A stretch of DNA of 64,000 bases from Amyelois transitella (Eukaryota > Arthropoda > Insecta > Lepidoptera > Pyralidae). Location of the stretch: the NCBI RefSeq assembly GCF_032362555.1, contig NC_083517.1, forward strand, positions 516,001-580,000, in the 5' to 3' direction. The position numbers were made by a program, and so were the translations under genes. The notes under the pieces were generated by a model. It saw only the letters and a list, made by a program, of their open reading frames with translations. It ran no database searches and had not been told where the DNA came from. Positions 4,090-59,014 of this stretch are shown here, in pieces; position 1 is the stretch's first letter, and every line of letters begins with the position of its first letter.

Positions 4090-5010
4090 AAAAAGCGTTT
4101 TACTTTTGTGTTACATTTTTTTTGTGTGACGAATTTATACCCATTGTTTTGATTAAAACTACCAAATAGCAAAACAAAGTATTAATATGGCATCACTGTT
4201 ACCGACATATAAATGTAAAAAAGGCAGACAATGTTGTTTTGTCACAGGAGGCATTTTGAAAGTCCATTACATAACTTGCTCTGATTGAATAAAAAAATTA
4301 AAATTGTGATTTTGAAGGTAAGTAACAGAGATTTGTTTATTTTTGTACCGAATTTCTATGCAAAGTGTTTTAAAGTGTGCGTGGAATCGCTCATAAGCGT
4401 CTAATTGTAATAAATAACCAAGTTATAACCAAAAAATATTTTAAATATTTTACTTTTGTGTTGCTTTTGTATGACATATGTGTTACGCTTGTATTACTTC
4501 TGTGTTATTGTAACACAAATTTACGTGTTGCGTAACACAATAGATTTGTAAAGCCGCATTCACATTGTGTGAATTGAAAGTAGTTTAGTTTAAATGGTGC
4601 TACCTACAATCTCCCGTTGAAATAATAATTATTGATGTTTGATTCCTCTCCGTCGTGCTTCTTCCAACCAGATAAATAGGCAAACAGAAAAAATATAAGT
4701 CATTGTTTTGGTTGTAGGTATTGCTTTATTTGAGAGCCTTACTATCATTGAGAGAGTTAGTATCTCTTAACAAAAGTCTCGAACTTACTTCGAGGCTAAC
4801 TCAATCTGTGTAATTTGTCGCGTATCTATATATTTATTTATTTACTTTTTCATTACCTACTTTATTTTTACTACAGTTACTAACTTATATTCGTTAAGGT
4901 TATTTTAGTCACCAATCTGAAACGAACTTTACCCAAAATGTTCGTTGCTTTTGGGTTACATTTGTGTTATGGTAACTCAAAATGTCTTGTGTTACTTTTG
5001 TGATACAATT
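4090..5010. other. AT-rich stretch with a cluster of TTTGTGTTAC-like motifs
   Basis: The motif TTTGTGTTAC or a near match recurs around 4104, 4455, 4480, 4500, 4955 and 4990. It includes inverted pairs such as 'tgtgttattgtaacaca' and 'gtgttgcgtaacac'. No coding potential is visible. The stretch also holds a SINE tail at 4715-4845. It could be a degraded repeat or a cluster of protein-binding sites. Confidence 0.35.
4715..4845 (+). mobile_element. Tail fragment of a tRNA-headed SINE
   Basis: The segment 'aagtctcgaacttacttcga' followed by 'ggctaactcaatctgtgtaa' and a TATTTATT tail matches the 3' part of the full SINE at 23584-23850. The tRNA-like head is absent here, so this is a 5'-truncated or decayed copy. 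Confidence 0.65.
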
Positions 5011-6482
5011 GACAATTTTCGCGGCCTGACCCATAATAAAACCACAATAAATGATAACCACATACTTGATAAAAAAAAATATAAATCTAAATAAATAAAA
5101 AAAAAATATTGCTTTTACTGGGCTTTAGATAGGTAACCTAAGCTTCTTTTTCTTTGCTAAGGAAAAAAAATATTAAGGAATATTTATACTCACATCATGC
5201 CAAAACTGATGAATAAAAATATATGTTAAGTTTTTCATAATAATAATTAGGTACTACAAGCACCAAAATAATAAACAATAGGCACTTATATGGTTTTAAT
5301 TCATTTTCCTTGCATAGTACTTCTATCTAAATGCTTAAATACGGTTTCTCTCTCCCTCAATAATCTGGGAACGTGTCATGCATACGAAGTCGCGGGAAGA
5401 AGGTAGCTTAAACCCGAATGGGTGAAGTAATTGTAAAAATCGTTAGGAACTTGACGTACGTAAGTCATTACAGTAACGTAAATCTAATGAATATGAAACT
5501 ATGCGTTCATTACTTTATGATAAAATATAACTTCAAATATGTATACCTCTGCATTCTGACGATAAGCAGGTGCCCAAGACGTTATAATTTCGTTAATTCT
5601 CAATAATTAGTAACTAAATATTATTGCTGAAAAATTAATAAGTTAGCACGTGGCTAGCCCCCCTTTCTTTCACTACACTAGACAACTCTAGATACGCCCA
5701 CGGTGACATATTGAGAATATCTATCCTTTTTCGAGGTCTTTTCAAAAACATCAACAGTCTGCAAAAAATATACGGATATATCAACCATATTATAATTATA
5801 TTTTTGATAACAGTATTAGAAATTTTACCTTAAAAAGTTAACTTAAAATAATCACGCTATTTAAGTAGGTATTATATTAAAATATTTAAAATGCTGCGGA
5901 GAGACAAGGGCGTAACCTCAGAAAACAAATAAACAAGCATAAACAAAAATATACATCACTTATCAAAACACTATATAGGTACCTACATAGTACAATACAT
6001 GACAAAAGACAAACCATAGCGCGTTATAATAAAGCATACCGCCATCTATTAGAGCAAAAACAAAAATAAATTTACATAAGATTTAACACAGTGATACATT
6101 TGCACAGTGTGTACCAAAAATTAATTTTAGATTACTATTTCCAATCAATTAATTGAGAATTGATGATCAGTATAAACTATTATAGCCCAAACGGCTAAGT
6201 CTAGAAATCACGCTACGAAGAAAAGATTTTTCGAAATTCCCTCGAGACCGAAAAGGTATAAGCGGGATTTTCCGTTCCACGCTGGCTCTGGTAAAGAAAC
6301 TTTTAATTCTAATCTAGCTGCGTCTTGTTTGTGGTTTGCATAATGCGATAACGCCTTTTCACCTAAGCATAAGATAGTTATAATTTATGTGCAACTAAGG
6401 ATATTCTATGTATTCAAATTTAAATTTTTTATTTATTACCATGGAACATTTGAATATCCCTCAAAATTGTTACTAAAACTAA

Positions 6483-24800: not shown

Positions 24801-26051
24801 GCACTTAACAGTTAAATTTATGCAGTTGAATTAAAAGTCACCCTGTATACGTACATACATACATATAATCACGTCTAAATCCTTTGCGGGGTAGACAGAG
24901 CCAACGGTCTTGAAAAGACTGATAGTAGCTTATCAGTCGTACGTACATACATATAATCACGTTTATATCCTTTGCGGGGTATACAGAGCCAACAGTCTTG
25001 AAAAGACTGATAGTGGCTTATCGGTCGTACATACATATATATAATCAGGTTTATAACCTTTGCAGGGTAGACTGAGCCAATAGTCTTGAAAAGATTTATA
25101 GTGGCCTATCTGTCATACATACATATGTATATATAATCACGTTTATATCCTTTGCGGGGTAGACAGAGCCAACGGTCTCGAAAAGACTGAAAGGCCACGT
25201 TCAGCTGTAGGTATAGACTTTATGATGGAATTATAGATCAAAAAGTGGCAGGTTGCTAGCCCATCGCTTACAAGATGAATCACAAGTTTACAAAACTATC
25301 CCTCAGTCGCCGTTTACGACATCCATGGGAACGTCATGAAGTCCTATCATTTTTTTTTATAGGTACCGTGTTGTCAAAAAAATATATACATACATACAGG
25401 GTGACATTTAAAACAACTGCATCCTTTTAAACATAGACTATACGCATTCTTCTGAGCTGTTTGAGGCTATTTTTATTTAAATTAAACGTCATCATTTTCA
25501 CATTTAAAAAACCCTCAAAAACTACGTCACACGCTTTATTAAAGACCAATACTACAAAAAGAAATTAAAACTAAACATGTAAATAAATGTCTGAAAAATA
25601 AATTATTTTTCTAGTATCAAGATCAAGTAAAGTACAGAGTTGTCGAGATCGCTCAGCTGAATGAATTGTGTCGTTGACCTCTGAATCTTACGCGTCGCTT
25701 TTCCGCCGGCCGCCGGCGGATATGACGTAGGATCGTGGATTTTGCTACTTTTATTTTTTTTCGTACTTTCTAAAATATGGACCGATATTTTTCTTTTAAT
25801 GTTTTTAAATATCCTTTAGATGAGTACACTTAACAGTTAAATTTATGCAGTTGAATTAAAAGTCACCCTGTATAATCACGCCCATAAGATATTTTTTTTA
25901 TTACACGCATTTTTCTTGGGACAGGTACTCAGCATTCCCCGACAAGCTGGGAGCGGCCGTCACCAGTTACAAGCCACACAACGACAGCTCCAAATTCGTA
26001 GAAGCTTTGCACAAATCCTTTTTAGACATCACGAAGATATTGTCAGGATAA
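18876..26051 (+). CDS. CPT2: Carnitine O-palmitoyltransferase 2, mitochondrial
   Basis: CPT2 sits on the matrix face of the inner mitochondrial membrane and reforms acyl-CoA from acylcarnitine for beta-oxidation. Coding exons are 18876-19486, 19941-20119, 21210-21477, 22395-22585, 23059-23228, 23861-23974, 24355-24656 and 25925-26051. All junctions are GT/AG with matching phase, giving 653 residues (human CPT2 is 658). The ATG at 18876 opens an Arg/Lys-rich, acid-poor stretch expected of a mitochondrial presequence. The choline/carnitine acyltransferase core is clear: [17 protein letters not shown] at the exon 1/2 junction, the catalytic His375 in [14 protein letters not shown], and [16 protein letters not shown] in exon 6. 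Several introns carry transposons close to splice sites. The last exon ends in DITKILSG and the stop at 26049. Confidence 0.94.
19695..19860 (+). repeat. R4 copy in CPT2 intron 1
   Basis: It matches the 6483-6645 copy block by block ('agaagaagccgtaacaaacc', 'ttgtccaaacttggaataga', 'aacattgttatgatcatttg'), in the same orientation. It ends about 80 bp before the acceptor of CPT2 exon 2. Confidence 0.55.
20143..20408 (+). mobile_element. Full-length R1 copy in CPT2 intron 2
   Basis: It runs from 'cgtgtgattcccggcaccaa' through 'gatgtcgtaaaaggcgacta', 'gatgggctagcaacctgtca' and 'ttggctctgtctacccc' to 'gacgtgactgtatgtatgta'. It is complete, in the same orientation as the gene. A second, degenerate reverse piece follows at about 20468-20612. 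Confidence 0.8.
20893..21176. mobile_element. Two truncated tRNA-headed SINEs facing each other
   Basis: 20893-21070 is a minus-strand SINE tail and part of the body ('cgaagtaagttcgagacttg' is the reverse complement of the tail at 23770). 21115-21176 is a plus-strand tRNA-like head ('cggcctctgtggcgcagcgg' ... 'ggaggtcccgggtt') that stops in the middle of the B-box-like region. Neither is complete. The plus head ends 33 bp before the acceptor of CPT2 exon 3. Confidence 0.65.
21508..21650 (+). repeat. R4 copy in CPT2 intron 3
   Basis: It carries the same ordered blocks as 13849-14050: 'gaatagaatagatttatttt', 'attgacgtcacatcac', 'gaagaagaagcggcggaaca'. It starts about 30 bp after the donor of CPT2 exon 3. 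Confidence 0.65.
21992..22252 (-). mobile_element. R1 copy in CPT2 intron 3
   Basis: A complete reverse copy, from 'acatatattcacatctattt' through 'tgacaggttgctagcccatc' to 'ggtgccgggaaccacacggc'. It lies about 140 bp upstream of exon 4. Confidence 0.78.
23243..23457 (-). mobile_element. Lep1-like Helitron copy in CPT2 intron 5
   Basis: The reverse complement matches the 1829-2034 copy over nearly its whole length: 'ctagaggccgcccccgactt' at one end, 'aatcccgcgggaattccggg' inside, and 'cgcatttataatattagtag' at the other. It starts only 14 bp after the donor of exon 5. Confidence 0.68.
23584..23850 (+). mobile_element. tRNA-derived SINE, intact head, CPT2 intron 5
   Basis: The head has an A-box-like 'tggcgcagcggtagtacgc' and a B-box 'gggttcgaatcccgg', as expected of an RNA polymerase III SINE derived from a tRNA. 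The body contains 'gagtaaagaactttttctga' and 'gtctcgaacttacttcgagg', ending in a TATTTATT-rich tail next to the acceptor of exon 6 (23861). It is not a functional tRNA: the head does not fold into a complete cloverleaf by eye and it runs into the SINE body. Confidence 0.8.
24042..24303 (-). mobile_element. R1 copy in CPT2 intron 6
   Basis: A full reverse copy ('acatatggtcacgtctatat' ... 'ggtgccgggaaccacacgac'). It ends about 52 bp before the acceptor of exon 7, so the branch point of that intron must lie in the short gap or in the element. Confidence 0.8.
24678..24847 (+). mobile_element. Internally deleted MITE ('M1' short form)
   Basis: The first ~100 bases match the left part of the 474-bp element at 25397-25870 and the last ~70 match its right part, with the middle ~300 bp missing. 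It ends in 'aaaagtcaccctgta'. It begins 'atggtgacatttaaa', so the first terminal bases are mutated. Confidence 0.7.
24849..25378 (-). repeat. Tandem array of R1 3' ends leading into a full R1 copy
   Basis: The sequence 'acatacatataatcacgt' plus about 70 bases of the R1 3' end is repeated four times, starting near 24853, 24941, 25027 and 25116 (period about 87-91 bp). The last copy continues into the whole element up to 'ttataggtaccgtgttg'. The repeats are diverged from each other by several substitutions, so the amplification is not very recent. It lies between the two MITE copies in CPT2 intron 7. Confidence 0.75.
25397..25870 (+). mobile_element. MITE 'M1', 474 bp, TA target-site duplication
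   Basis: It starts 'cagggtgacatttaaaac' and ends 'attaaaagtcaccctg', giving an inverted terminal pair cagggtgac/gtcaccctg flanked by TA on both sides. It has no coding capacity. TA duplications suggest mobilisation by a Tc1/mariner-type transposase. A near-complete inverted copy is at 51481-51957 and a deletion derivative at 24678-24847. It contains a perfect GC palindrome (gccggccgccggc) near 25707. Its right end is 54 bp from CPT2 exon 8. Confidence 0.8.
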
Positions 26052-44979: not shown

Positions 44980-45335
44980 CTATGAGTACGCGGCATTCTT
45001 TAGCGGCGCCCGTGTGAATATGATCTCTTCCTCGTCGGCGTTCACGTTTTCCGATGTGGTGAGGGCGACAGTGTCGCTGTGGACCACGTGAGGGGATTCG
45101 CTGAACTCGTCCAGCTCGTCGATGCCCGCTGGAATAAACATTATTAATTTGACATTCCATTTTGTTTTTTTTTTTGTATGGAGTAAGAATACATGGCGAG
45201 GAAATCATCAGATCCAGCCAACTGGTCGTGAAATCCATAATCAAAGCTGGGTTTAGTTCGAAAGTTGCAAAGGTCATAAGGAAGTTGCTTCAGGTTAAAA
45301 CTTACTTAATTCAGGATCTGGGTCAAAGGCGCACC

Positions 45336-45423
<88 letters not shown>

Positions 45424-48400
45424 AGTAAAATAGAATAAATTTATGTTCCAAATTGGATAAAAGGTATCACTAATTGACGTCACACAACTTAAACGCTTCC
45501 AAAACGCATGTGTAGAAGAAGCGGCGGAACAAACTACACTGCAGTATGTAACCGAGTTTTACTTTTGGAGGAGGAAGAAGATACTGTAAGAAGAAGAAAG
45601 AGGATGTCTCACCAGTATAGTCCGGTGGGGAGAGCAGGAGGTACTGCTCGGATCGCGTCGGCCACAGAAGATGAGACATCACGCAGAACGACAAGCAGTC
45701 GGCAGAGTTTGTTATACCTGAAATATACATATAGGTTTAAAGAATTTATTCTCAAAAACGATTACAAAAATCCACTTACATGAGAACAAAAGAGATAAAA
45801 GTTTTTAAAACTAAACAGCAGTCCCGTATTTAATAAAGGGTCTTAATTAAGGGTTTATCCAGGGTATATTATACATTTTTTTTTTTTGGTTGAACGATAA
45901 CAAGCACAAAGAATAAAGCAAAGAACAAACAAATACTAAAAACTAATTCTCATAGAGTGAGCAGTTTTTAATAATATAGTCACGTAACTCGGATTTGAAA
46001 GATTGTAAATATGGTCACGTCTATATCCCTTGCGGGGTAGATAGAGCCAATAGTCTTGAAAAGACTGAATGGCTACATTCAGCTATTTGGCTTAATGATA
46101 GAATTGAGATTCAAATAGTGACAGGTCGCTAGCCCATCGCCTAACTAAGAATTCCAAGTTAGAACGCCTATCCCTTAGTCGCCTTTTACTACATCCATGG
46201 GAAAGAGATGGAGTGGTCCTATACTTTTTTTTGTATTAGCTCCGGGAACCACACGGCACATTGTCAATTTTCCATCAAACTGTTGTCTTATGAGAGAGAG
46301 CTCTATATATATTGTCTGTCTGACTGTCGCTCACCCAGCAGGAACTTGGAGCGCCACAGCGGGCTGACCTGCAGCGCCTCGACTAGCCAATGAGAGAGAG
46401 AGCTGTATATATGTCGTCCCTGTCGCTCACCCAGCAGGAACTTGGAGCGCCACAGCGGGCTGACCTGCAGCGCCTCGACTAGCCAATGAGAGAGAGAGCT
46501 GTATATATGTCGTCCCTGTCGCTCACCCAGCAGGAACTTGGAGCGCCACAGCGGGCTGACCTGCAGCGCCTCGACTAGCCAATGAGAGAGAGAGCTGTAT
46601 ATATGTCGTCCCTGTCGCTCACCCAGCAGGAACTTGGAGCGCCACAGCGGGCTGACCTGCAGCGCCTCGACTGACCAATGAGAGAGAGAGAGCTGTATAT
46701 ATGTCGTCCCTGTCGCTCACCCAGCAGGACCTTGGAGCGCCACAGCGGGCTGACCTGCAGCGCCACGAGCGCGCTGAGCGGCAGGTACACGAGAGAGAGA
46801 GAGCTGTATACATGTCGTCCCTGTCGCTCACCCAGCAGGAACTTGGAGCGCCACAGCGGGCTGACCTGCAGCGCCTCGACTGACCAATGAGAGAGAGAGA
46901 GCTGTATATATGTCGTCCCTGTCGCTCACCCAGCAGGACCTTGGAGCGCCACAGCGGGCTGACCTGCAGCGCCACGAGCGCGCTGAGCGGCAGGTACACG
47001 AGAGAGAGAGAGCTGTATACATGTCGTCCCTGTCGCTCACCCAGCAGGAACTTGGAGCGCCACAGCGGGCTGACCTGCAGCGCCACGAGCGCGCTGAGCG
47101 GCAGGTACACGAGAGAGAGAGAGCTGTATACATGTCGTCCCTGTCGCTCACCCAGCAGGAACTTGGAGCGCCACAGCGGGCTGACCTGCAGCGCCACGAG
47201 CGCGCTGAGCGGCAGGTACACGAGAGAGAGAGAGCTGTATACATGTCGTCCCTGTCGCTCACCCAGCAGGAACTTGGAGCGCCACAGCGGGCTGACCTGC
47301 AGCGCCACGAGCGCGCTGAGCGGCAGGTACACGAGAGAGAGAGAGCTGTATACATGTCGTCCCTGTCGCTCACCCAGCAGGAACTTGGAGCGCCACAGCG
47401 GGCTGACCTGCAGCGCCACGAGCGCGCTGAGCGGCAGGTACACGAGAGAGAGAGAGCTGTATACATGTCGTCCCTGTCGCTCACCCAGCAGGAACTTGGA
47501 GCGCCACAGCGGGCTGACCTGCAGCGCCACGAGCGCGCTGAGCGGCAGGTACACGAGAGAGAGAGAGCTGTATACATGTCGTCCCTGTCGCTCACCCAGC
47601 AGGAACTTGGAGCGCCACAGCGGGCTGACCTGCAGCGCCACGAGCGCGCTGAGCGGCAGGTACACGAGAGAGAGAGAGCTGTATACATGTCGTCCCTGTC
47701 GCTCACCCAGCAGGAACTTGGAGCGCCACAGCGGGCTGACCTGCAGCGCCACGAGCGCGCTGAGCGGCAGGTACACGAGAGAGAGAGAGCTGTATACATG
47801 TCGTCCCTGTCGCTCACCCAGCAGGAACTTGGAGCGCCACAGCGGGCTGACCTGCAGCGCCACGAGCGCGCTGAGCGGCAGGTACACGAGAGAGAGAGAG
47901 CTGTATACATGTCGTCCCTGTCGCTCACCCAGCAGGAACTTGGAGCGCCACAGCGGGCTGACCTGCAGCGCCACGAGCGCGCTGAGCGGCAGGTACACGA
48001 GAGAGAGAGAGCTGTATACATGTCGTCCCTGTCGCTCACCCAGCAGGAACTTGGAGCGCCACAGCGGGCTGACCTGCAGCGCCACGAGCGCGCTGAGCGG
48101 CAGGTACACGAGAGAGAGAGAGCTGTATACATGTCGTCCCTGTCGCTCACCCAGCAGGAACTTGGAGCGCCACAGCGGGCTGACCTGCAGCGCCACGAGC
48201 GCGCTGAGCGGCAGGTACACGAGAGAGAGAGAGCTGTATACATGTCGTCCCTGTCGCTCACCCAGCAGGAACTTGGAGCGCCACAGCGGGCTGACCTGCA
48301 GCGCCACGAGCGCGCTGAGCGGCAGGTACACGAGAGAGAGAGAGCTGTATACATGTCGTCCCTGTCGCTCACCCAGCAGGAACTTGGAGCGCCACAGCGG

Positions 48401-51400
48401 GCTGACCTGCAGCGCCACGAGCGCGCTGAGCGGCAGGTACACGAGAGAGAGAGAGCTGTATACATGTCGTCCCTGTCGCTCACCCAGCAGGAACTTGGAG
48501 CGCCACAGCGGGCTGACCTGCAGCGCCACGAGCGCGCTGAGCGGCAGGTACACGAGAGAGAGAGAGCTGTATACATGTCGTCCCTGTCGCTCACCCAGCA
48601 GGAACTTGGAGCGCCACAGCGGGCTGACCTGCAGCGCCACGAGCGCGCTGAGCGGCAGGTACACGAGAGAGAGAGAGCTGTATACATGTCGTCCCTGTCG
48701 CTCACCCAGCAGGAACTTGGAGCGCCACAGCGGGCTGACCTGCAGCGCCACGAGCGCGCTGAGCGGCAGGTACACGAGAGAGAGAGAGCTGTATACATGT
48801 CGTCCCTGTCGCTCACCCAGCAGGAACTTGGAGCGCCACAGCGGGCTGACCTGCAGCGCCACGAGCGCGCTGAGCGGCAGGTACACGAGAGAGAGAGAGC
48901 TGTATACATGTCGTCCCTGTCGCTCACCCAGCAGGAACTTGGAGCGCCACAGCGGGCTGACCTGCAGCGCCACGAGCGCGCTGAGCGGCAGGTACACGAG
49001 AGAGAGAGAGCTGTATACATGTCGTCCCTGTCGCTCACCCAGCAGGAACTTGGAGCGCCACAGCGGGCTGACCTGCAGCGCCACGAGCGCGCTGAGCGGC
49101 AGGTACACGAGAGAGAGAGAGCTGTATACATGTCGTCCCTGTCGCTCACCCAGCAGGAACTTGGAGCGCCACAGCGGGCTGACCTGCAGCGCCTCGACTG
49201 ACCAATGAGAGAGAGAGAGCTGTATATATGTCGTCCCTGTCGCTCACCCAGCAGGAACTTGGAGCGCCACAGCGGGCTGACCTGCAGCGCCTCGACTGAC
49301 CAATGAGAGAGAGAGAGCTGTATATATGTCGTCCCTGTCGCTCACCCAGCAGGACCTTGGAGCGCCACAGCGGGCTGACCTGCAGCGCCACGAGCGCGCT
49401 GAGCGGCAGGTACACGAGAGAGAGAGAGCTGTATACATGTCGTCCCTGTCGCTCACCCAGCAGGAACTTGGAGCGCCACAGCGGGCTGACCTGCAGCGCC
49501 TCGACTGACCAATGAGAGAGAGAGAGCTGTATACATGTCGTCCCTGTCGCTCACCCAGCAGGAACTTGGAGCGCCACAGCGGGCTGACCTGCAGCGCCAC
49601 GAGCGCGCTGAGCGGCAGGTACACGAGAGAGAGAGAGCTGTATACATGTCGTCCCTGTCGCTCACCCAGCAGGAACTTGGAGCGCCACAGCGGGCTGACC
49701 TGCAGCGCCACGAGCGCGCTGAGCGGCAGGTACACGAGAGAGAGAGAGCTGTATACATGTCGTCCCTGTCGCTCACCCAGCAGGAACTTGGAGCGCCACA
49801 GCGGGCTGACCTGCAGCGCCACGAGCGCGCTGAGCGGCAGGTACACGAGAGAGAGAGAGCTGTATACATGTCGTCCCTGTCGCTCACCCAGCAGGAACTT
49901 GGAGCGCCACAGCGGGCTGACCTGCAGCGCCACGAGCGCGCTGAGCGGCAGGTACACGAGAGAGAGAGAGCTGTATACATGTCGTCCCTGTCGCTCACCC
50001 AGCAGGAACTTGGAGCGCCACAGCGGGCTGACCTGCAGCGCCACGAGCGCGCTGAGCGGCAGGTACACGAGAGAGAGAGAGCTGTATACATGTCGTCCCT
50101 GTCGCTCACCCAGCAGGAACTTGGAGCGCCACAGCGGGCTGACCTGCAGCGCCACGAGCGCGCTGAGCGGCAGGTACACGAGAGAGAGAGAGCTGTATAC
50201 ATGTCGTCCCTGTCGCTCACCCAGCAGGAACTTGGAGCGCCACAGCGGGCTGACCTGCAGCGCCACGAGCGCGCTGAGCGGCAGGTACACGAGAGAGAGA
50301 GAGCTGTATACATGTCGTCCCTGTCGCTCACCCAGCAGGAACTTGGAGCGCCACAGCGGGCTGACCTGCAGCGCCACGAGCGCGCTGAGCGGCAGGTACA
50401 CGAGAGAGAGAGAGCTGTATACATGTCGTCCCTGTCGCTCACCCAGCAGGAACTTGGAGCGCCACAGCGGGCTGACCTGCAGCGCCACGAGCGCGCTGAG
50501 CGGCAGGTACACGAGAGAGAGAGAGCTGTATACATGTCGTCCCTGTCGCTCACCCAGCAGGAACTTGGAGCGCCACAGCGGGCTGACCTGCAGCGCCACG
50601 AGCGCGCTGAGCGGCAGGTACACGAGCCACACGAGGCTGGAGGCGCCGAAGTGCAGCAGGAAGTGCAGGCGCGGCGCGTGGTGCTCGTGGCGCAGCGTGA
50701 GGCGCAGCTCCAGCACGAACCACGCCATGATGCCCACGCGCAGCGCCAGCGCCAGCCAGCCCGGCCACGTCTGGTACTCGTCGATCTCCTCGATTATGTC
50801 CACCTCCGTCTGCCCCAACAGGTTCATGGCAACGTGAAAGGAAGAAAGAGGATCAGACAGTCTTGGAGAGGCTTTTATAAGCGTATCCCTTAGTCACCTC
50901 TTACGTTAAAGGAATAAAGAGAATCAGACAGTCTTCAAGAGACTTTTATAAGCCTATACCTTAGTCACCTCTTACGTTAAAGGAATAAAGAGAATCAGAC
51001 AGTCTTCAAGAGACTTTTATAAGCCTATACCTTAGTCACCTCTTACGTTAAAGGAATAAAGAGAATCAGACAGTCTTCAAGAGACTTTTATAAGCCTATA
51101 CCTTAGTCACCTCTTACGTTAAAGGAATAAAGAGAATTATTCCTTGCGGAGTAAACAAAGCCAACAGTCTTGAATTTTATAAGCCTGTCCCTTAGTCACT
51201 TACGACATACATGGGAAATTAGTATGAGAGTGGAGTGGTCCTATTCGTTTTTATATTGGTGCCGGGAATCACACTATACACTATAAGATATAAGGAGTAT
51301 TTTTCTTGAAAAAAATATAGTCCTTTTAATCAATTTAATGTAATATAATCTTACAACGATAATACGCCTTTAATAAAGTTTCAATTTACTAAACTTAAAG

Positions 51401-54400
51401 AACCATAGCTTATTATTTAATAAAGAAATCTCTACTGACGGTGATAGGTACCATCCGAAACACATTAAGTGTTACATATACAGGGTGACTTTTAATTCAA
51501 CTGTATAAATTTAACTGTTAAGTGTACTCATCTAACGGATATTTAGAAACGTTAAAAGAAAAATATCGGATCATATTTCAGAAAGTACGAAAGAAAATTT
51601 AAGTTTCAAAATCCACGATCCTAAATACGTCATATCACCCCGGCCGGCGGAAAAGCGACGCGTAAGATTCAGAGGTCAACGACACAATTCATTCAGCTGA
51701 ACGATCTCGACAACTCTGTACTTTACTTGGATCTTGATACTAGAAAAATAATTTATTTTTCAGACATTTATTTACATGTTTAGTTTTAATTGCTTTTTGT
51801 ACTATTGGACTTTAATAAAGCGTGTGACGTAGTTTTTGAGGGTTTTTTTAATGTGAAAATGATGACGTTTAATTTAAATAAAAATAGGCTCAAACAGCTC
51901 AGAAGCATGGGTATAGTCTATGTTTAAAAGGATGCAGTTGTTTTAAATGTCACCCTGTATATCATACATACATATTGTCACATCTTTATACCTCACGGGG
52001 TAGACAGAGCCAACAAACTTAAAAATCAGTATTTTCAAGTTAGTTATAGGCCACGATCAGCCGTTTGGCTTACTGATAGATTTGAGATTCAAATAGTGAC
52101 AGGTTGTTAGCCTATCGCTTTAGAAGAATGCCAAGTTTAAAATTCCATCTCTTAGTCGCCTTCGTCGAATTTTGATAACGACTATTTTTTAAAAAAAAGT
52201 TAATAAAATAATTAAAAATTACAAATTCAAAAATTTTTATTCATTATCATAGGATACTTCATATCTAATAATGCTTAATCAAATCTTTCGATACCTATCA
52301 CAACATTGGTTTTAACATCAAATATGTAAATTACTTAAAACCTAAGTTTACTGCCGCTTCCAAAGCTTCAACGAAGCGGTAACATACATAAAATCACGCC
52401 TCTTTCCCGGAGGGGTAGGCAGAGACTACATCTTTCCACTTGCCATGATCTTTGCATACTTCCTTCGCTTCATCCACATTCATAACTCTCTTCATGCAAT
52501 CTCGGCGGATTCGGGTACTTAGCGGTAACAACATATGGTCACGTCTATATCCCTTGCGGGGCAGACAGAGCCAAAAGTCTTGAAAAGACTGAATGGCCAC
52601 GTTCAGCTATTTGGCTTAACGATAGAATTGAGATTCAAATAATGACAGGTTGCTAGCCCATCGCCTAAAAAAGAATCCCAAGTTTATAAGCCTATCCCTT
52701 AGTCGCCTTTTACGACATAAAGAGATGGAGTGGTCCTATTCTTTTTTTTGTATTGGTGCCGGGAACCACACGGCACCTAGCTCTAGCTACTTAGCGGTAA
52801 CAAAACTGTTATACTATACTCACAGTGTTCCACACGTACAGCAATATGTGAACTATCCCGAACGCCAACCAAACGCCGAACACGAGCGGTTTGTGAGTCA
52901 GCTCTATGCGAGTCACCGCCCAGCCTTTAGCCAGCAACAGCAGCAGTAACATGAACAGGGTCTGAAACACATACATACATACATACGGTCACGTCTATAT
53001 CCGTTGCGGGGTATACAAAGCTAACAGTCTTGAAAATACTGATAGGTCACGTTCAGCCGTTTGGCTTAATGATAGAATTGAGATTCAAATAGTGACAGGT
53101 TGCTAGCCCATCGCCTAAAAAAGAATCCCAAGTTTGTAAGCCTATCCCTTAGTAGCCTTTTACGGTACATCCATTGGAAAGAGATGGAGTGGTCCTATTA
53201 TTTTTTGTATTGGTGCCGGGAACCACACGGCACGTCTTTTCTAATTTTGTGCCAAATTTCGTCAAAATCGGTCCAGTAGTTTTTGAATTTACAATATTAG
53301 TATAGTATGGATATAAGAAGCAATAGTCCTGAGATTTTGGATAGGCTGACTATGAACAAATAAACTACACTATAATTTGATGCAGCAATTTCAGAGTTGC
53401 TTCTTTTACAAATAAACACATGCATACATATAGCCACGTCTATATCCCTTGCGGGGTAGACAAAGCCAATAGTCTTGAAGCTTCAAAGGTAGATGATCAG
53501 CTGTAAAATTTTAGGATGGAATTGAGATAAATCTTATTACTAAATTAGGAAATTCCATCATAAAGCCATACAGCTGAACATTGTCTGTTCAAGACTGTTA
53601 GCTCTGTCTACCCCGCAAGGTATATAGACGTGACCATATGTTTGTACGTATGTATCATTATAATATGAATGTATTGTATCTCAATTCTATCTTAAAAAAC
53701 AAATAGCTGAACGTGGACTATCAGTCTTTACAAGACTGTTGGCTCTGTCTACCCTGCAAGAGATATAGTAAAATTTTCTCACCCTGCTCATAATATCCAG
53801 GATATCACCAGCGACTGCCAAATTAGGAAAACCGACACCATCAGCTGCAAACTTCACAGTGTGTAGTACGTTGAAACAGAACGATATGAATTCCAGCACG
53901 AGGCTGAACGTAAACAGTTTCGTTACTGGGTGCTTCTGGGTCCTGGAATAGAGAGAGACAGTTTATAAATATTACCATGGAAACATACACCGTGTGGTTC
54001 CCGGCACCAGTACCAAAAAAGAATAGGACCACTCCATCTCTTTCCCATGGATATCGTGAAAGGCAAATAAGGGGTAGGCTTACAAACTTGGGATTCTTTA
54101 GGCGATGGGCTAGCAACCTGCCACTATTTCAATCTCAATTCTATCATTAAGCAAAATAGCTGAGCGTGGCCTATCAGTCTTTTCAAGACTGTTGGCTCTG
54201 TCTACCCCACAAGGGCTATAGACGTGACCATATGTTTGTATGTATGTGTAACATACAAAAAAGACATACTTTCTATCTCACCTGACCGCATAAATCTGCA
54301 CCGGCAATAGTATAATATAAAACAGCCAGAACACCAAATACAGCTCAAGCGTATTCTGTCTATCAAATGAGAACTGATACAGTAGTGTATTGGTCAATGA

Positions 54401-55391
54401 CAGGTTAGGACTCCCGTTCACAAGCCAGAAGTCATAGTTTATCGTCTGAGGTACGTTGGTTAGCGTTTTGTTGCCTTTTGACGGTGCTCCAGTGTAGTGG
54501 TGCCAGGTACAATCCGTCTCGTCCAGATAACAGGACACCATTGAGACGTACCAAAATCTGTGAACATGGAATTTTTAGGTATTTAGATGCTGTTCAGAAA
54601 TATAAATAGAATATTGTAGAAGTAATAATAACGATAGAGAATAGAATAAAAAAACATGAGATAGATATTTGATATTTAAAATAAAAAGGGTTTTATTTCC
54701 ATGTTTTTTAAAATTATTGAAACAAGATCCACAGCATTATGGCAATAGTTTTGTTACAGAGTGTTAAAGAGATTAATTAATAAATCTATCAAAAAAGACT
54801 ATGTATTAACAGCAGGGGTGCATGTGGGCTTTACAAGGCGCTCAGCAAACAGCTGAGACAGGATTTTATAAGTATATATATAACATAATATGAGTTATAA
54901 AACTAAATTAATCCCACCACTTACCTAGGCTGTCCAGTATTCATAATCAGATACGTAAACTGATTATTTTTCACGACATTCCAGGGCATATCCTCATCGA
55001 TGCAAAGCTCGCCTTTAGGGCACGGTATTCTCCTGAATAAATCCTGTCCTTTCCCATTACATATAGGATGGAATGCTGAACTATTCAGATGTTGAAACAT
55101 AACCTGACATGCCGATTCTTTATTTGGTATATTCCTATTTTTATAATAATGTAAAAAATGATATCTATCCAAAACAGCGAAGGTAATGGGATACTTGAAC
55201 TGTTCATTTGATGTTATATTACCAAAAATATATCCATATGTTTGCTTTTGGTAGTGAATATCTGTCTTTTGGAAGCCAAATTTGACAAGGAATTTAAAGA
55301 ACTCTCCTGTAGAAAATTCCCCTTGTATATGTGTCGTTGAAACAGTATAAACTAATGATAATATAATTAGAAGTATCCTCTGGGTAAACAT
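44980..55391 (-). CDS. GPR180/TMEM145-type seven-helix membrane protein
   Basis: Members of this family (rhodopsin-like GPCR transmembrane domain, Pfam GpcrRhopsn4) have a lumenal/extracellular N-domain and seven helices; their ligands are not firmly established. Coding exons (minus strand) are 55391-54925, 54557-54282, 53942-53783, 52961-52824, 50809-50554, 45717-45613 and 45128-44980, with phases 2, 2, 0, 0, 1, 1, giving 516 residues. ATG 55391 begins a signal peptide (MFTQRILLIILSLVYTVS). The N-domain carries NxS/T sites and cysteines. Helix 1 is in ELYLVFWLFYIILLPVQIYAV, helices 2-4 in exons 3-4, helices 5-6 in exon 5 (through SSLVWLVYLPLSALVAL), and helix 7 in exon 6. The tail is acidic and ends KNAAYS. 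I cannot decide between GPR180 and TMEM145 orthology. Exon 5's 3' end has been amplified about 40-fold in intron 5. Confidence 0.85.
45338..45420. repeat. (GA)n microsatellite in intron 6 of the GPR180-like gene
   Basis: An uninterrupted GA/CT dinucleotide tract of about 83 bp. On the transcribed (minus) strand it reads as a long CU tract about 210 bases upstream of the last coding exon, and could bind polypyrimidine-tract proteins. Open frames that cross it are artefacts of its regularity. Confidence 0.9.
45427..45550 (+). repeat. R4 copy in intron 6 of the GPR180-like gene
   Basis: It has the usual blocks ('aatagaataaatttatgttc', 'attgacgtcacacaac', 'gtagaagaagcggcggaaca', 'actacactgcag'). 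It starts directly after the (GA)n tract. Confidence 0.6.
46010..46263 (-). mobile_element. R1 copy bordering the exon-derived tandem array
   Basis: A full reverse-strand copy (same strand as the host gene) running 'tggtcacgtctatatccctt' to 'gctccgggaaccacacggca'. The tandem array begins about 30 bp to its right. Confidence 0.8.
46290..50630 (-). repeat. ~40-copy tandem array made from the 3' end of exon 5 plus its splice donor
   Basis: Counting by the position of 'gctgtata', the array has 40 units. 31 intervals are 111 bp, five are 98 bp, two are 96 bp and the leftmost is about 102 bp and degenerate. On the minus strand a 111-bp unit is the last ~70 bases of exon 5 (codons VYLPLSALVALQVSPLWRSK then FLL), an intact donor g|gtgagc, about 30 bases of intron and a (CT)5-6 run. 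The rightmost unit is the genuine exon end (donor at 50554). By eye the 111-bp units are nearly identical. The 98-bp units replace 27 bases of exon sequence with a 14-base 'attggtcagtcgag'. The period is 37 codons and open in several frames, so frames of 360-830 codons appear on both strands; they are consequences of the repeat. Confidence 0.95.
50829..51135 (-). repeat. 71-bp tandem repeat, about four copies, in intron 4
   Basis: The unit contains 'gacttttataagcctatacc' and 'ttagtcacctcttacgttaa', with starts near 50870, 50941, 51012 and 51083 (exact 71-bp steps). The core resembles the R1 segment 'agcctatcccttagtcgcct', so the array was probably built from part of an R1 copy. A further R1 remnant follows to about 51280. 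It lies about 20 bp from the acceptor of exon 5. Confidence 0.85.
51481..51957 (-). mobile_element. MITE 'M1', inverted near-complete copy in intron 4
   Basis: It starts 'cagggtgacttttaattcaa' and ends 'ttttaaatgtcaccctg', flanked by TA on both sides. It matches the reverse complement of 25397-25870 over its whole length at 477 bp, including the 'acgcgtaagattcagaggtc' segment. Differences are scattered, and the GC palindrome of the other copy is partly lost. Confidence 0.8.
51962..52175 (-). mobile_element. R1 copy, 5' end lost
   Basis: 'catacatattgtcacatctt' then 'cggggtagacagagccaaca' and 'tgacaggttgttagcctatc', ending within 'cttagtcgccttcgtcga'. It directly follows the MITE. Confidence 0.65.
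52388..52515. repeat. Dispersed repeat 'gggtaggcagagactac'
   Basis: 'aaaatcacgcctctttcccg', 'gaggggtaggcagagactac' and 'catacttccttcgcttcatc' form a block also seen in part at 58751-58840. I recognise the phrase as widespread in moth genomes but cannot name the family. Confidence 0.5.
52533..52787 (-). mobile_element. R1 copy after exon 4 of the GPR180-like gene
   Basis: A complete copy ('acatatggtcacgtctatat' to 'gtgccgggaaccacacggca'), same strand as the gene, 36 bp downstream of the exon 4 donor (52824/52823). Confidence 0.82.
52970..53236 (-). mobile_element. R1 copy whose tail abuts the exon 4 acceptor
   Basis: A complete copy on the gene's strand. Its TGTA tail (minus strand 'gtatgtatgtatgtatgtgt') runs right up to 'ttcag|acc', the acceptor of exon 4 at 52962-52964. 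Only about seven bases of original intron end are left between tail and exon. Confidence 0.82.
53422..53765. mobile_element. R1 fragments, both orientations, intron 3
   Basis: A reverse 3' piece (53422-53510, 'tagccacgtctatatccctt') is followed by a plus-strand 3' piece (53555-53655, 'gttagctctgtctaccccgc' with 'tatgtttgtacgtatgtat' tail) and another plus piece (53675-53765) ending at the donor side of exon 3. The three look like successive insertions. Confidence 0.6.
53992..54247 (+). mobile_element. R1 copy, complete reference copy, intron 2
   Basis: The clearest plus-strand copy: start 'gtgtggttcccggcaccagt', then 'ccatctctttcccatggata', 'gatgggctagcaacctgcca', 'aagactgttggctctgtcta' and the tail 'gaccatatgtttgtatgtat'. 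It is antisense to the host gene. Confidence 0.85.
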
Positions 55392-56654: not shown

Positions 56655-59014
56655 ATGGTCGAAATCGGCGTCCCACAGCAATCAGCTGACGAGAACTTAG
56701 AAAATGCAGAGTGGTATTGGGGCGACATCACTCGGTATGTATATTTATTAATATTCTTCGTATTTTACACAAAAACTACATACCTATGAAATAAAACTTG
56801 ATCTTGAGTCATCTATAAATTAATGTTTTGCATCAGATTTATTACATGTTACGCTTTTACTTTCTTTTAAAGTCCCACTTAACCTTTACTTAGCTTGGTA
56901 ATGAAAACTACGCTGACTTTGTTAGCTGGTTGAGTCAAGACGTAAGATCCTATAGGATGCTAGCAATGACTTGTGAAATAGAGAAAGCAAACATATTTTA
57001 AATACAAACCTTAAAGCTGAAGTCATTAAGGTTTAATTTAACACTGATTCTCTTGTCTCATTTGTCTTGACGTTGTCCCCATTAAAAAAATACATCTATT
57101 GGTCAAAGCATTATAACAAAATTCTTTGGTTCCAGTGATGAAGCTGCTGAAAAGCTCCTAGACACCTGTGATGGCACATATCTAGTCCGAAACTCATCAA
57201 ACAAAGATGGAGGTTACACACTCACTGTAAGGAAAGGTGGCTCCAACAAGCTCATCAAAATATATAACCAAAATGGCCGGTACGGGTTTTGTGAACCGTT
57301 CGAGTTCAACTCCGTTGTGGAGTTGGTTAGGTTCTACACAGAATATTCTCTCGGCCACTGCAATCACAATCTGGACATCAAGCTTATGTACCCGTTGTCT
57401 AGACTCCCAGAATACGATGGCGGAGAAAACATTAGTGATGAAACACTAGAATTGCAATATAAAGAGAAACACGAAGAATACACTACAAAATTTAGGGATT
57501 TCTCGGAACGTTCACAAAAATTTATGAGACTCAGGGACGAGGTGAAATATAAAAGACAAGCATTAGATGCTTTCAAGGAAACTTTGAGGAAATGCGAGGA
57601 ACATCTTAAATTGCAAGAGAAAATGCAAAGTGAGGCCCAACCTCACGAAAAGAATGATCTTTTGGAGAATAACAGGCAACTGTTGAGCAGAGTTCAGAGT
57701 TTGAGGAAGGCGAAGAAGGAGCTGCATGAGAAACTGAGGGAGACGGTGAATTCCAGTTTAGTTCTTGAAAGAGAGATTTATAAGCTAAAGTCTGATATTC
57801 TTATGATTTATAAAATGAAGGACCGATACAAACTGTAAGTATGATTCATTGATTCATTTTTCCTTTGTCCTTAAGTTTTGACCTAGATTACAATAAAATT
57901 ATATTTGTATCCAGTAATTTAACCAAAGTTCTTGGCTATACGGTGTTTTGCCGACCGCTGCTTCCATTAATGATAACCTTTTTATGGTTTTCATATCTGG
58001 CAATGTTGGGACTTACAGTTAACATGTAAATCACTAAATAAAAAAAATCCCATGTGTATGGGTGTCATTATACCTAAAATCTGAATCATTTCAAACGAAA
58101 CTAGCTCAATCCATCCATTTTGTATTCCAGATGGTTACAACGGCGTGGTAAGACTGAAGAATACCTCCAAGCTCTTGAGAACGATAATACAGACGAACTG
58201 GAAGAACTGTACGCGCACCGGGAGCCAATCAGCTGGAAGGTGGACTGCACCCGAGACACGGCAGAGAAGCTATTGGCTGGAAAGCCGCAGGGGACGTTCC
58301 TGATTCGCCCAAACTCAACAGGCCAATTAGCTTTATCAATTTCCTGTAATAACACTATTTATCATTGTATCATCTTTAGAACGGAAAGAGGCTATGGGTT
58401 CGCGGAGCCTTATAATATTTATAGGTAAGTAAATGAATGGTTTTATCATTATTGTCATCCATAATAAGAATTACTGTCTGTCTGTCTTACTGTCCACAAA
58501 AATTCAAAACTAGAATAAATGGATGTCTCTGTAACATTTTTGTCTTCATCGTCACTTACCATAGTGAGATTGAAGAGAAATGCCTAATCCAATATTGAAT
58601 AAAAATAAAAAATAACAACCAGGCAAAGGATTTCAAATCATAAAAAAAATTATATCATGCTGTACCTAAGATTAAAACGCGTCAAAGATGTGACCTACTC
58701 AATAATGGTCTTACTGCAGACCAAAAAAACTCACACAGAAGCTTCCTTATCATCATTGCCATGCCTCTCGTGGAAGGGTAGGCAGAGGCTTCATGTTTTT
58801 ATTTGCAATGACTTATGCATACTTCTATCCTTAAGTTGATAAAAACTTGATACAGAATAATTTATTCTTTAATTATTTCAGGACCTTAAACGAGCTTGTA
58901 CTACACTACGCAGTTAATTCGTTAGAAGAACACAATGATCATTTGAAGACCAAATTAAAATATCCAATCAACGGCAACCTGGTGAAGAAGCCCGAGAGGA
59001 ACCAGGTGAAATGA
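56655..59014 (+). CDS. Pi3K21B: PI3-kinase regulatory subunit, short nSH2-iSH2-cSH2 form
   Basis: This adaptor binds the p110 catalytic subunit of class IA PI3-kinase and recruits it to phosphotyrosines on insulin receptor/IRS proteins. Coding exons are 56655-56734, 57136-57834, 58131-58424 and 58882-59014, all with phase 2 junctions, giving 401 residues. The start gives a short leader, then the nSH2 domain (from NAEWYWGDITR, with FLVR-like Arg45 in GTYLVRNSS). A long heptad-rich iSH2 coiled coil (about 125-260) holds p110. The cSH2 domain follows (ISWKVDCTRDTAEKLLAGKP; Arg319 in GTFLIRPNS). There is no SH3 or BH domain, as in fly p60 and mammalian p50/p55. It is shorter than fly p60 as I remember it (about 500 residues). 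Intron 3 carries two dispersed repeats. Confidence 0.93.
58480..58840. repeat. Two dispersed repeats in PI3K adaptor intron 3
   Basis: 58480-58620 matches 41059-41205 ('actgtccacaaaaattcaaa', 'ctagaataaatggatgtctc', 'gaaatgcctaatccaatatt'). 58751-58840 ('gccatgcctctcgtggaagg', 'gtaggcagaggcttcatgtt') is a diverged relative of 52388-52515. Confidence 0.5.

Follow-up and report, generated by a model that had tools for sequence, protein, structure and literature searches.

The analysed window, a 64,000-nucleotide (nt) stretch of the Amyelois transitella genome (NC_083517.1, positions 516,001 to 580,000), contains a GPR180/TMEM145-family gene in which the end of exon 5, its splice donor and the start of intron 5 are repeated in tandem within intron 5. 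The initial annotation had read the repeat in this way, and its exon-end origin, coordinates and description hold. We consider it probable that the array arose by tandem duplication across the exon/donor border, grew by unequal exchange and is tolerated because the first donor is used.

All 40 donors of the array, from 50554 to 46335 on the minus strand, carry GGTGAGCGACAG, confirming the earlier count of a true donor at 50554 followed by 39 others. The main unit consists of 70 bases of exon 5 (50623-50554) and 41 bases of intron 5 (50553-50513), and the array is thus a minisatellite of an exon border, each unit of this form holding the exon end together with its donor. The unit length of 111 base pairs (bp) given previously applies to 31 of the 39 donor-to-donor intervals, whereas five measure 98 bp and three 96 bp, and the eight units with the shortest front lack part of the 70 exonic bases. 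Among the 31 intervals of 111 bp, 28 are identical and three differ by one T>G change; if physical units are counted instead, with the true exon end among them, identical ones make up 29 of 40. Read from the exon, the order is ten A units (starting with the true exon end), B C E B, 19 A units and C B C F D D G, flanked on both sides by unique sequence. Calculated pairing with U1 is equal for the first and the last donor (-9.3 kcal/mol each). When 251 bases of the region were searched against the insect's own genome (327 Mb in 33 contigs, only the best candidates being scored), 40 of 40 among the matches listed fell in this array. The A unit also holds a CAG 58 nt past the donor, preceded by a fairly pyrimidine-rich tract (11/16); as a candidate acceptor, it could leave a 53-nt, frame-shifting piece.

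The host gene comprises eight exons on the minus strand, from 55391 to 44980, which by splice motifs and phases give an uninterrupted frame of 526 amino acids. Comparison of this protein with PF10192, the GPR180/TMEM145 transmembrane domain, gave an E-value of 1.8e-54 over profile positions 2-224 of 224, assigning it to the family, and the join of exon 5 to exon 6 (50554 to 45717, phase 1) is consistent with the intact frame. A hydropathy scan at a cut-off of 1.5 revealed a signal-like segment and six helices and did not show a seventh. No PDB chain matched the protein by sequence at E 0.001, and a single IMG/VR scan gave no relative for the exon 5-6 protein. At least one other PF10192 gene is present in the genome, on C29; self-comparison of the 9.9 kb fetched around it detected no tandem cluster.

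The units combine two fronts with two tails, and all four combinations occur (29, 4, 3 and 3 among the 39 units whose tail could be classified), which requires that units have exchanged or recombined. Behind the last donor (46335), a diverged intron-head copy precedes unique intron, and this diverged head is probably the original intron start. At the junction, CTC is common to exon 5 and the intron head. The mutation rate in Heliconius is 2.9e-9 per site and generation; with this rate assumed, the 29 identical copies place the last homogenisation at most about 320000 generations ago. A paralogue was considered as the source of the short unit front and rejected, and a deletion in an older copy would be the simpler origin, because the short front aligns to exon 5 itself with gaps.

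To follow the reading frame, each of the 40 donors was spliced in silico to exon 6. Donors 0-9, counting the true donor as 0, keep the frame and the full C-terminus, and donors 10-39 (30/40) all lead to a premature stop, the full-length product being lost first at donor 49457 and at all donors beyond. The earlier claim that the first nine extra donors (50443 to 49555) are in frame without a stop is thereby borne out. In 29 of the 30 premature-stop products, the stop falls more than 100 nt before the last junction. A translated unit would read LSLVYLPLSALVALQVSPL, with a mean hydropathy of 1.71 over 19 residues, close to that of the fifth hydrophobic segment after the signal-like one (1.68); the view that each unit carries half of a hydrophobic helix was likewise correct.

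Recurrence of this build was sampled in 24 further stretches of 10 kb each; 19 were picked by hand at round coordinates of the genome, and a seeded random list supplied the remaining 5. Self-comparison of the 19 stretches, the C29 paralogue stretch and the window (264 kb together) detected 19 tandem clusters, of which the 19 stretches hold 14, the window 5 and the paralogue stretch none, and the 5 random stretches gave a single, AT-rich cluster. The sequence was read for 6 of the 14 clusters, the other 8 and the random-stretch one being judged by position, base composition and first letters. Two of the 24 stretches (L030 and L019) carry the same build as the GPR180-family array, which qualifies its earlier description as an unusual state for a conserved gene. 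L030 contains, on C15 at about 1.3055 Mb, an exon matching ADH_N (7.8e-10), whose end and donor (AA/GTGAGT, the slash marking the exon border) are repeated at exactly 148 bp to give 6 donors, and each of the 5 later donors leads to a stop at codon 65 of the exon. L019 contains, on C3 at about 1.5028 Mb, an exon that matches the spectrin repeat (1.8e-14) and belongs to a gene that we take to be alpha-spectrin. The end and donor of this exon (AG/GTCAGT) occur once more at 139 bp; there are 2 donors and a partial copy, and the second donor leads to a stop. By eye, the exonic part of the unit amounts to about 119 (ADH) and 113 (spectrin) bases and the intronic part to about 29 and 26. All three gene-verified arrays begin with the true donor, with the copies lying behind it in the intron, and at two of them (ADH and spectrin) the later donors lead to stops. 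None of the clusters whose sequence was read is an acceptor-side array.

Further repeats were seen in the same stretches. Behind the next two exons of the ADH-family gene, just past their donors (L030, 4833-4999 and 4304-4492), lie two more, less clear exon-derived copies: one is an 83-bp x 2 unit (TTATTACAG/GTGAGG), which may be an element with a target-site duplication, and the other a 41-bp exon-internal copy at offset 148. The cluster at 6368-6556 of L019 resembles an element repeated in the window. The cluster at 4516-4774 of L022 is a coding glycine-rich repeat, and an open frame of 368 codons at 4239-5345 of the same stretch, with glycine-leucine repeats and recurring TTVCESAPN blocks, perhaps encodes a structural protein.

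On the scale of the whole genome, three motif copies in a row were counted, and raw matches were compared with a built-in reversed control. The donor motif AGGTRAG gave 158 matches versus 326 in the control at period 81-111 and 344 versus 325 at period 112-142; the permuted GGATRAG gave 61 versus 109, and 53 versus 103 at period 112-142; the acceptor motif TTTCAGR gave 37 versus 26, and 52 versus 36 at period 112-142; and the permuted motifs GTGARAG and GATGRAG gave 157 versus 152 and 141 versus 166. Grouping the donor matches listed at period 81-111 (100 of 158) yielded 16 clusters, 13 of them with at least two rows. Up to C22:4.57 Mb, and among the matches listed, as in all the cluster comparisons here, clusters with at least two rows numbered 13 for the donor, 2 for GGATRAG, 4 for the acceptor and 13 for GTGARAG, and clusters stepping 81-111 bp numbered 10, 2, 3 and 7. 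On C1-C18, the step of 81-111 bp was found in 6 donor, 2 GATGRAG, 2 GGATRAG, 5 GTGARAG and 3 acceptor clusters, and at least two rows in 9, 5, 2, 9 and 4. One-sided chances, uncorrected, were 0.02 against GGATRAG, 0.05 against acceptors and 0.08 when two clean controls were pooled on C1-C18. At period 112-142, clusters with at least two rows, counted by eye to C5:2.634 Mb, numbered 6 for the donor, 2 for the acceptor and 1 for GGATRAG, the rows not being adjacent in one of the six donor clusters, on C2. The acceptor motif was no less sensitive on the GPR180-family gene, where each motif fits 2 of 7 sites.

Letters (up to 80) were shown for 13 of the 16 donor clusters, 7 of them GC-rich, 5 not, and one (C4:1575538) ambiguous although GC-rich. 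The seven (C4:12848306, four on C11, C12:10383789 and C20:2197102), exon-like by sequence alone, have tails with a GC content of 0.60-0.82 after base 30 versus 0.36 in 190 kb of sampled genome. All seven are open over the 80 letters; it is the GC content that marks a real difference between the clusters, because some AT-rich ones are open too. Enrichment of donor arrays as a genome-wide class is suggestive, not proven, and the asymmetry between donor and acceptor is only suggestive.

Under the explanation we favour, the founding duplication would have connected the intron head, at its (CT)n run, with the exon 5 position lying 70 bases short of the exon end, likely by slippage or microhomology repair because the junction shares CTC with the exon, and unequal exchange or slippage would have enlarged the array. 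The whole array would be spliced out within intron 5, the identical later donors rarely displacing 50554, because that donor is transcribed first and completes the normal 256-nt exon. More generally, duplications across donors would arise now and then and, unseen by selection behind a working first donor, grow as minisatellites. With the build recurring at two further genes, tolerance rather than isoform coding would explain the class, because at those genes the later donors would give premature stops. As a tentative extension, which we hold with less confidence, many exon-end minisatellites may exist in this genome and mirror-image acceptor arrays may be rarer, because copies behind a true donor would be harmless and copies before a true acceptor would not. 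Hairpins were rejected as the driver of expansion, since the folds of the GPR180 unit (two strands) and of the ADH and spectrin units are not exceptional relative to shuffles (z -1.2, -0.3, +1.4 and 0.0).

Two functions had been offered in the initial annotation, a tolerated donor decoy and a length series of receptor isoforms, and the former fits best. In an isoform series, some transcripts would use donors 50443 to 49555 and gain 37 residues per unit, each unit being a potential extra membrane helix, and the part after the inserted units would switch sides with each odd number of units. Such insertion of membrane segments behind helix 6 is physically conceivable as judged from the predicted protein; the nine extra donors are in frame without a stop, every unit gives the same hydrophobic stretch of hydropathy 1.71, and at IFI6 repeat units are employed as donors (PMC4526556). 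The open frame, which is the main support of the series, is however not strong evidence for coding, because the 41-nt intron head is open in 58% of 20000 shuffles, one length in three is divisible by three by chance, and A units in series stay open in 4 of the 6 frames (two of these antisense). The later donors of both sister arrays hit stops, moreover, and extra helices behind helix 6 would probably break the conserved fold; we regard the series as unlikely.

Slightly less likely again is a control of dose, by which leaky downstream donors would generate premature-stop transcripts and the copy number would tune the output of the gene. The premature stops at 30 of the 40 donors, nearly all well ahead of the last junction (29/30), agree with it, whereas the frame is kept at the nine donors nearest the exon, where use is most likely. 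The title of a 2001 paper by Lievers suggests such tuning of output, as an effect on activity, for the 31-bp variable number of tandem repeats (VNTR) of human CBS. The CBS repeat likewise spans an exon end and its donor (c.1444_1467+7; PMC2630376). An assembly error, in the copy number or in the array as such, is very improbable. The 28 identical intervals of 111 bp, seen in the assembly alone, would fit an error, but seven unit types are interleaved with recombinants, the flanks are unique, similar arrays occur at two other genes, and an assembly with only 33 contigs for 327 Mb would point to long reads that could bridge 4.3 kb.

Several points weigh against tolerance behind a winning first donor. 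Of duplicated identical donors, the intron-proximal one can win. The repeat donors of IFI6 are used (PMC4526556), and for CBS 844ins68 the splicing machinery is reported to prefer the more distal of two duplicated sites (PMC2630376). In the GPR180-family gene, ten of the 40 donors are in frame and every added unit contributes a 19-residue hydrophobic stretch, for which reason a coding role for the in-frame units is possible. As to the class, the raw motif counts, dominated by single large arrays, do not support enrichment, and the controls are mixed, the permuted GTGARAG yielding as many clusters of at least two rows as the donor motif (13 and 13); GTGARAG is a poor control because GTGAGAG is itself donor-like, and it was counted against the class regardless.

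The features of the region are collected in Table 1. Exon 5 sits between two tandem arrays, and its acceptor is pyrimidine-poor (8/16, the lowest of 7 acceptors). The 71-bp array of intron 4 has its full-length match here only; the five matches elsewhere are short, at 31-42 bases. At the 30-nt exon 7, the acceptor has a pure (CT)41 run as its pyrimidine tract. An interspersed repeat occurs in both orientations in the introns of the GPR180-family gene, and its core resembles, by eye, gtgtggttcccggcaccaatacaaaa...ggcgactaagggataggc; an 88-bp x 3.8 tandem array at 24850-25190 resembles part of it. On the plus strand, 57086-58428 shows SH2 and inter-SH2 matches, and this neighbour is probably a PI3-kinase regulatory subunit gene.

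Table 1. Features of the GPR180-family gene and its repeats (window coordinates)
Feature	Position	Strand	Basis
Exon 1 (start codon at 55391)	54925..55391	-	splice motifs and phase
Exon 2	54282..54557	-	splice motifs and phase
Exon 3	53783..53942	-	PF10192 match, splice motifs and phase
Exon 4	52824..52961	-	splice motifs and phase
Intron 4 tandem array, 71 bp x 4.3, stopping 22 bases short of exon 5	50832..51137	-	sequence
Exon 5, 256 nt, true donor TGG/GTGAGC after 50554	50554..50809	-	PF10192 match; phases
Intronic part of the unit: 41-nt intron head with the (CT)n run at its end	50513..50553	-	sequence
First block, nine identical 111-bp A units, donors 50443 to 49555	49514..50512	-	sequence, frame test
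Mixed block B C E B (98/111/98/98 bp)	49109..49513	-	sequence, frame test
Second block, 19 identical 111-bp A units	47000..49108	-	sequence
Mixed distal block C B C F D D G, last donor 46335	46293..46999	-	sequence
Exon 6	45613..45717	-	splice motifs and phase
Exon 7, 30 nt, acceptor tract = (CT)n run at 45338-45420	45306..45335	-	splice motifs and phase
Exon 8 with stop codon	44980..45128	-	splice motifs and phase
Interspersed repeat copies	~46000-46270, 51180-51270, 52560-52790, 52980-53240, 54000-54260	both	by eye

Forty identical donors behind one exon are an extreme natural test of the choice among equal splice sites, and if RNA shows that the first donor only is used, position alone decides. 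If the tentative extension to many such arrays is true, the arrays would be a natural experiment in which the first-transcribed donor wins, and if many genes carry them, a mutational process across exon borders and the selection that filters it become directly countable. Gene predictors may call false exons in such arrays, which is a warning for annotation.

Our literature search, with most subscription journals outside it, turned up precedents in single human genes and papers on intron gain, and nothing on exon-end minisatellites in Lepidoptera or as a class across a genome. The repeat unit of the IFI6 minisatellite is about 12 bp long. This minisatellite was reportedly described as having multiple splice donor sites by Turri, Cuin and Porter (1995, Nucleic Acids Research (NAR) 23:1854). 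As in the GPR180-family array, a tandem repeat at an exon end supplies splice donors from its units, two of which serve as donors in human IFI6 (6-16) and give three mRNA species (PMC4526556); unlike that short unit, the array described here has a unit of 111 bp and 40 putative donors. The human CBS VNTR (c.1444_1467+7, 16-21 copies; PMC2630376) also lies at an exon/intron border of a conserved gene and, by its coordinates (24 exonic and 7 intronic bases), has a donor in every unit, but its unit is smaller and its copies fewer than the 70 exonic and 41 intronic bases and 40 copies found here, where three genes of one genome were seen with such arrays. In intron gain by tandem duplication, as reported for Drosophila (PMC2891723) and potato RdRp (PMC4974935), splice signals are similarly copied beside the original and a new intron is made, whereas here the copies would stay inside the old intron and no new intron would be needed. 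The ABCA7 VNTR is likewise a tandem array within an intron, whose length goes with splicing of the gene through skipping of exon 19; its abstract describes no exon-derived units, in contrast to the exon-derived units here (PMC5954066). Relative to IFI6 and CBS, the large unit, the 40 donors and the recurrence at further genes are new. Because IFI6 and CBS show that such arrays can matter, some leak into donor use is possible at the GPR180-family gene, the one of the three verified genes where a leak would keep the frame.

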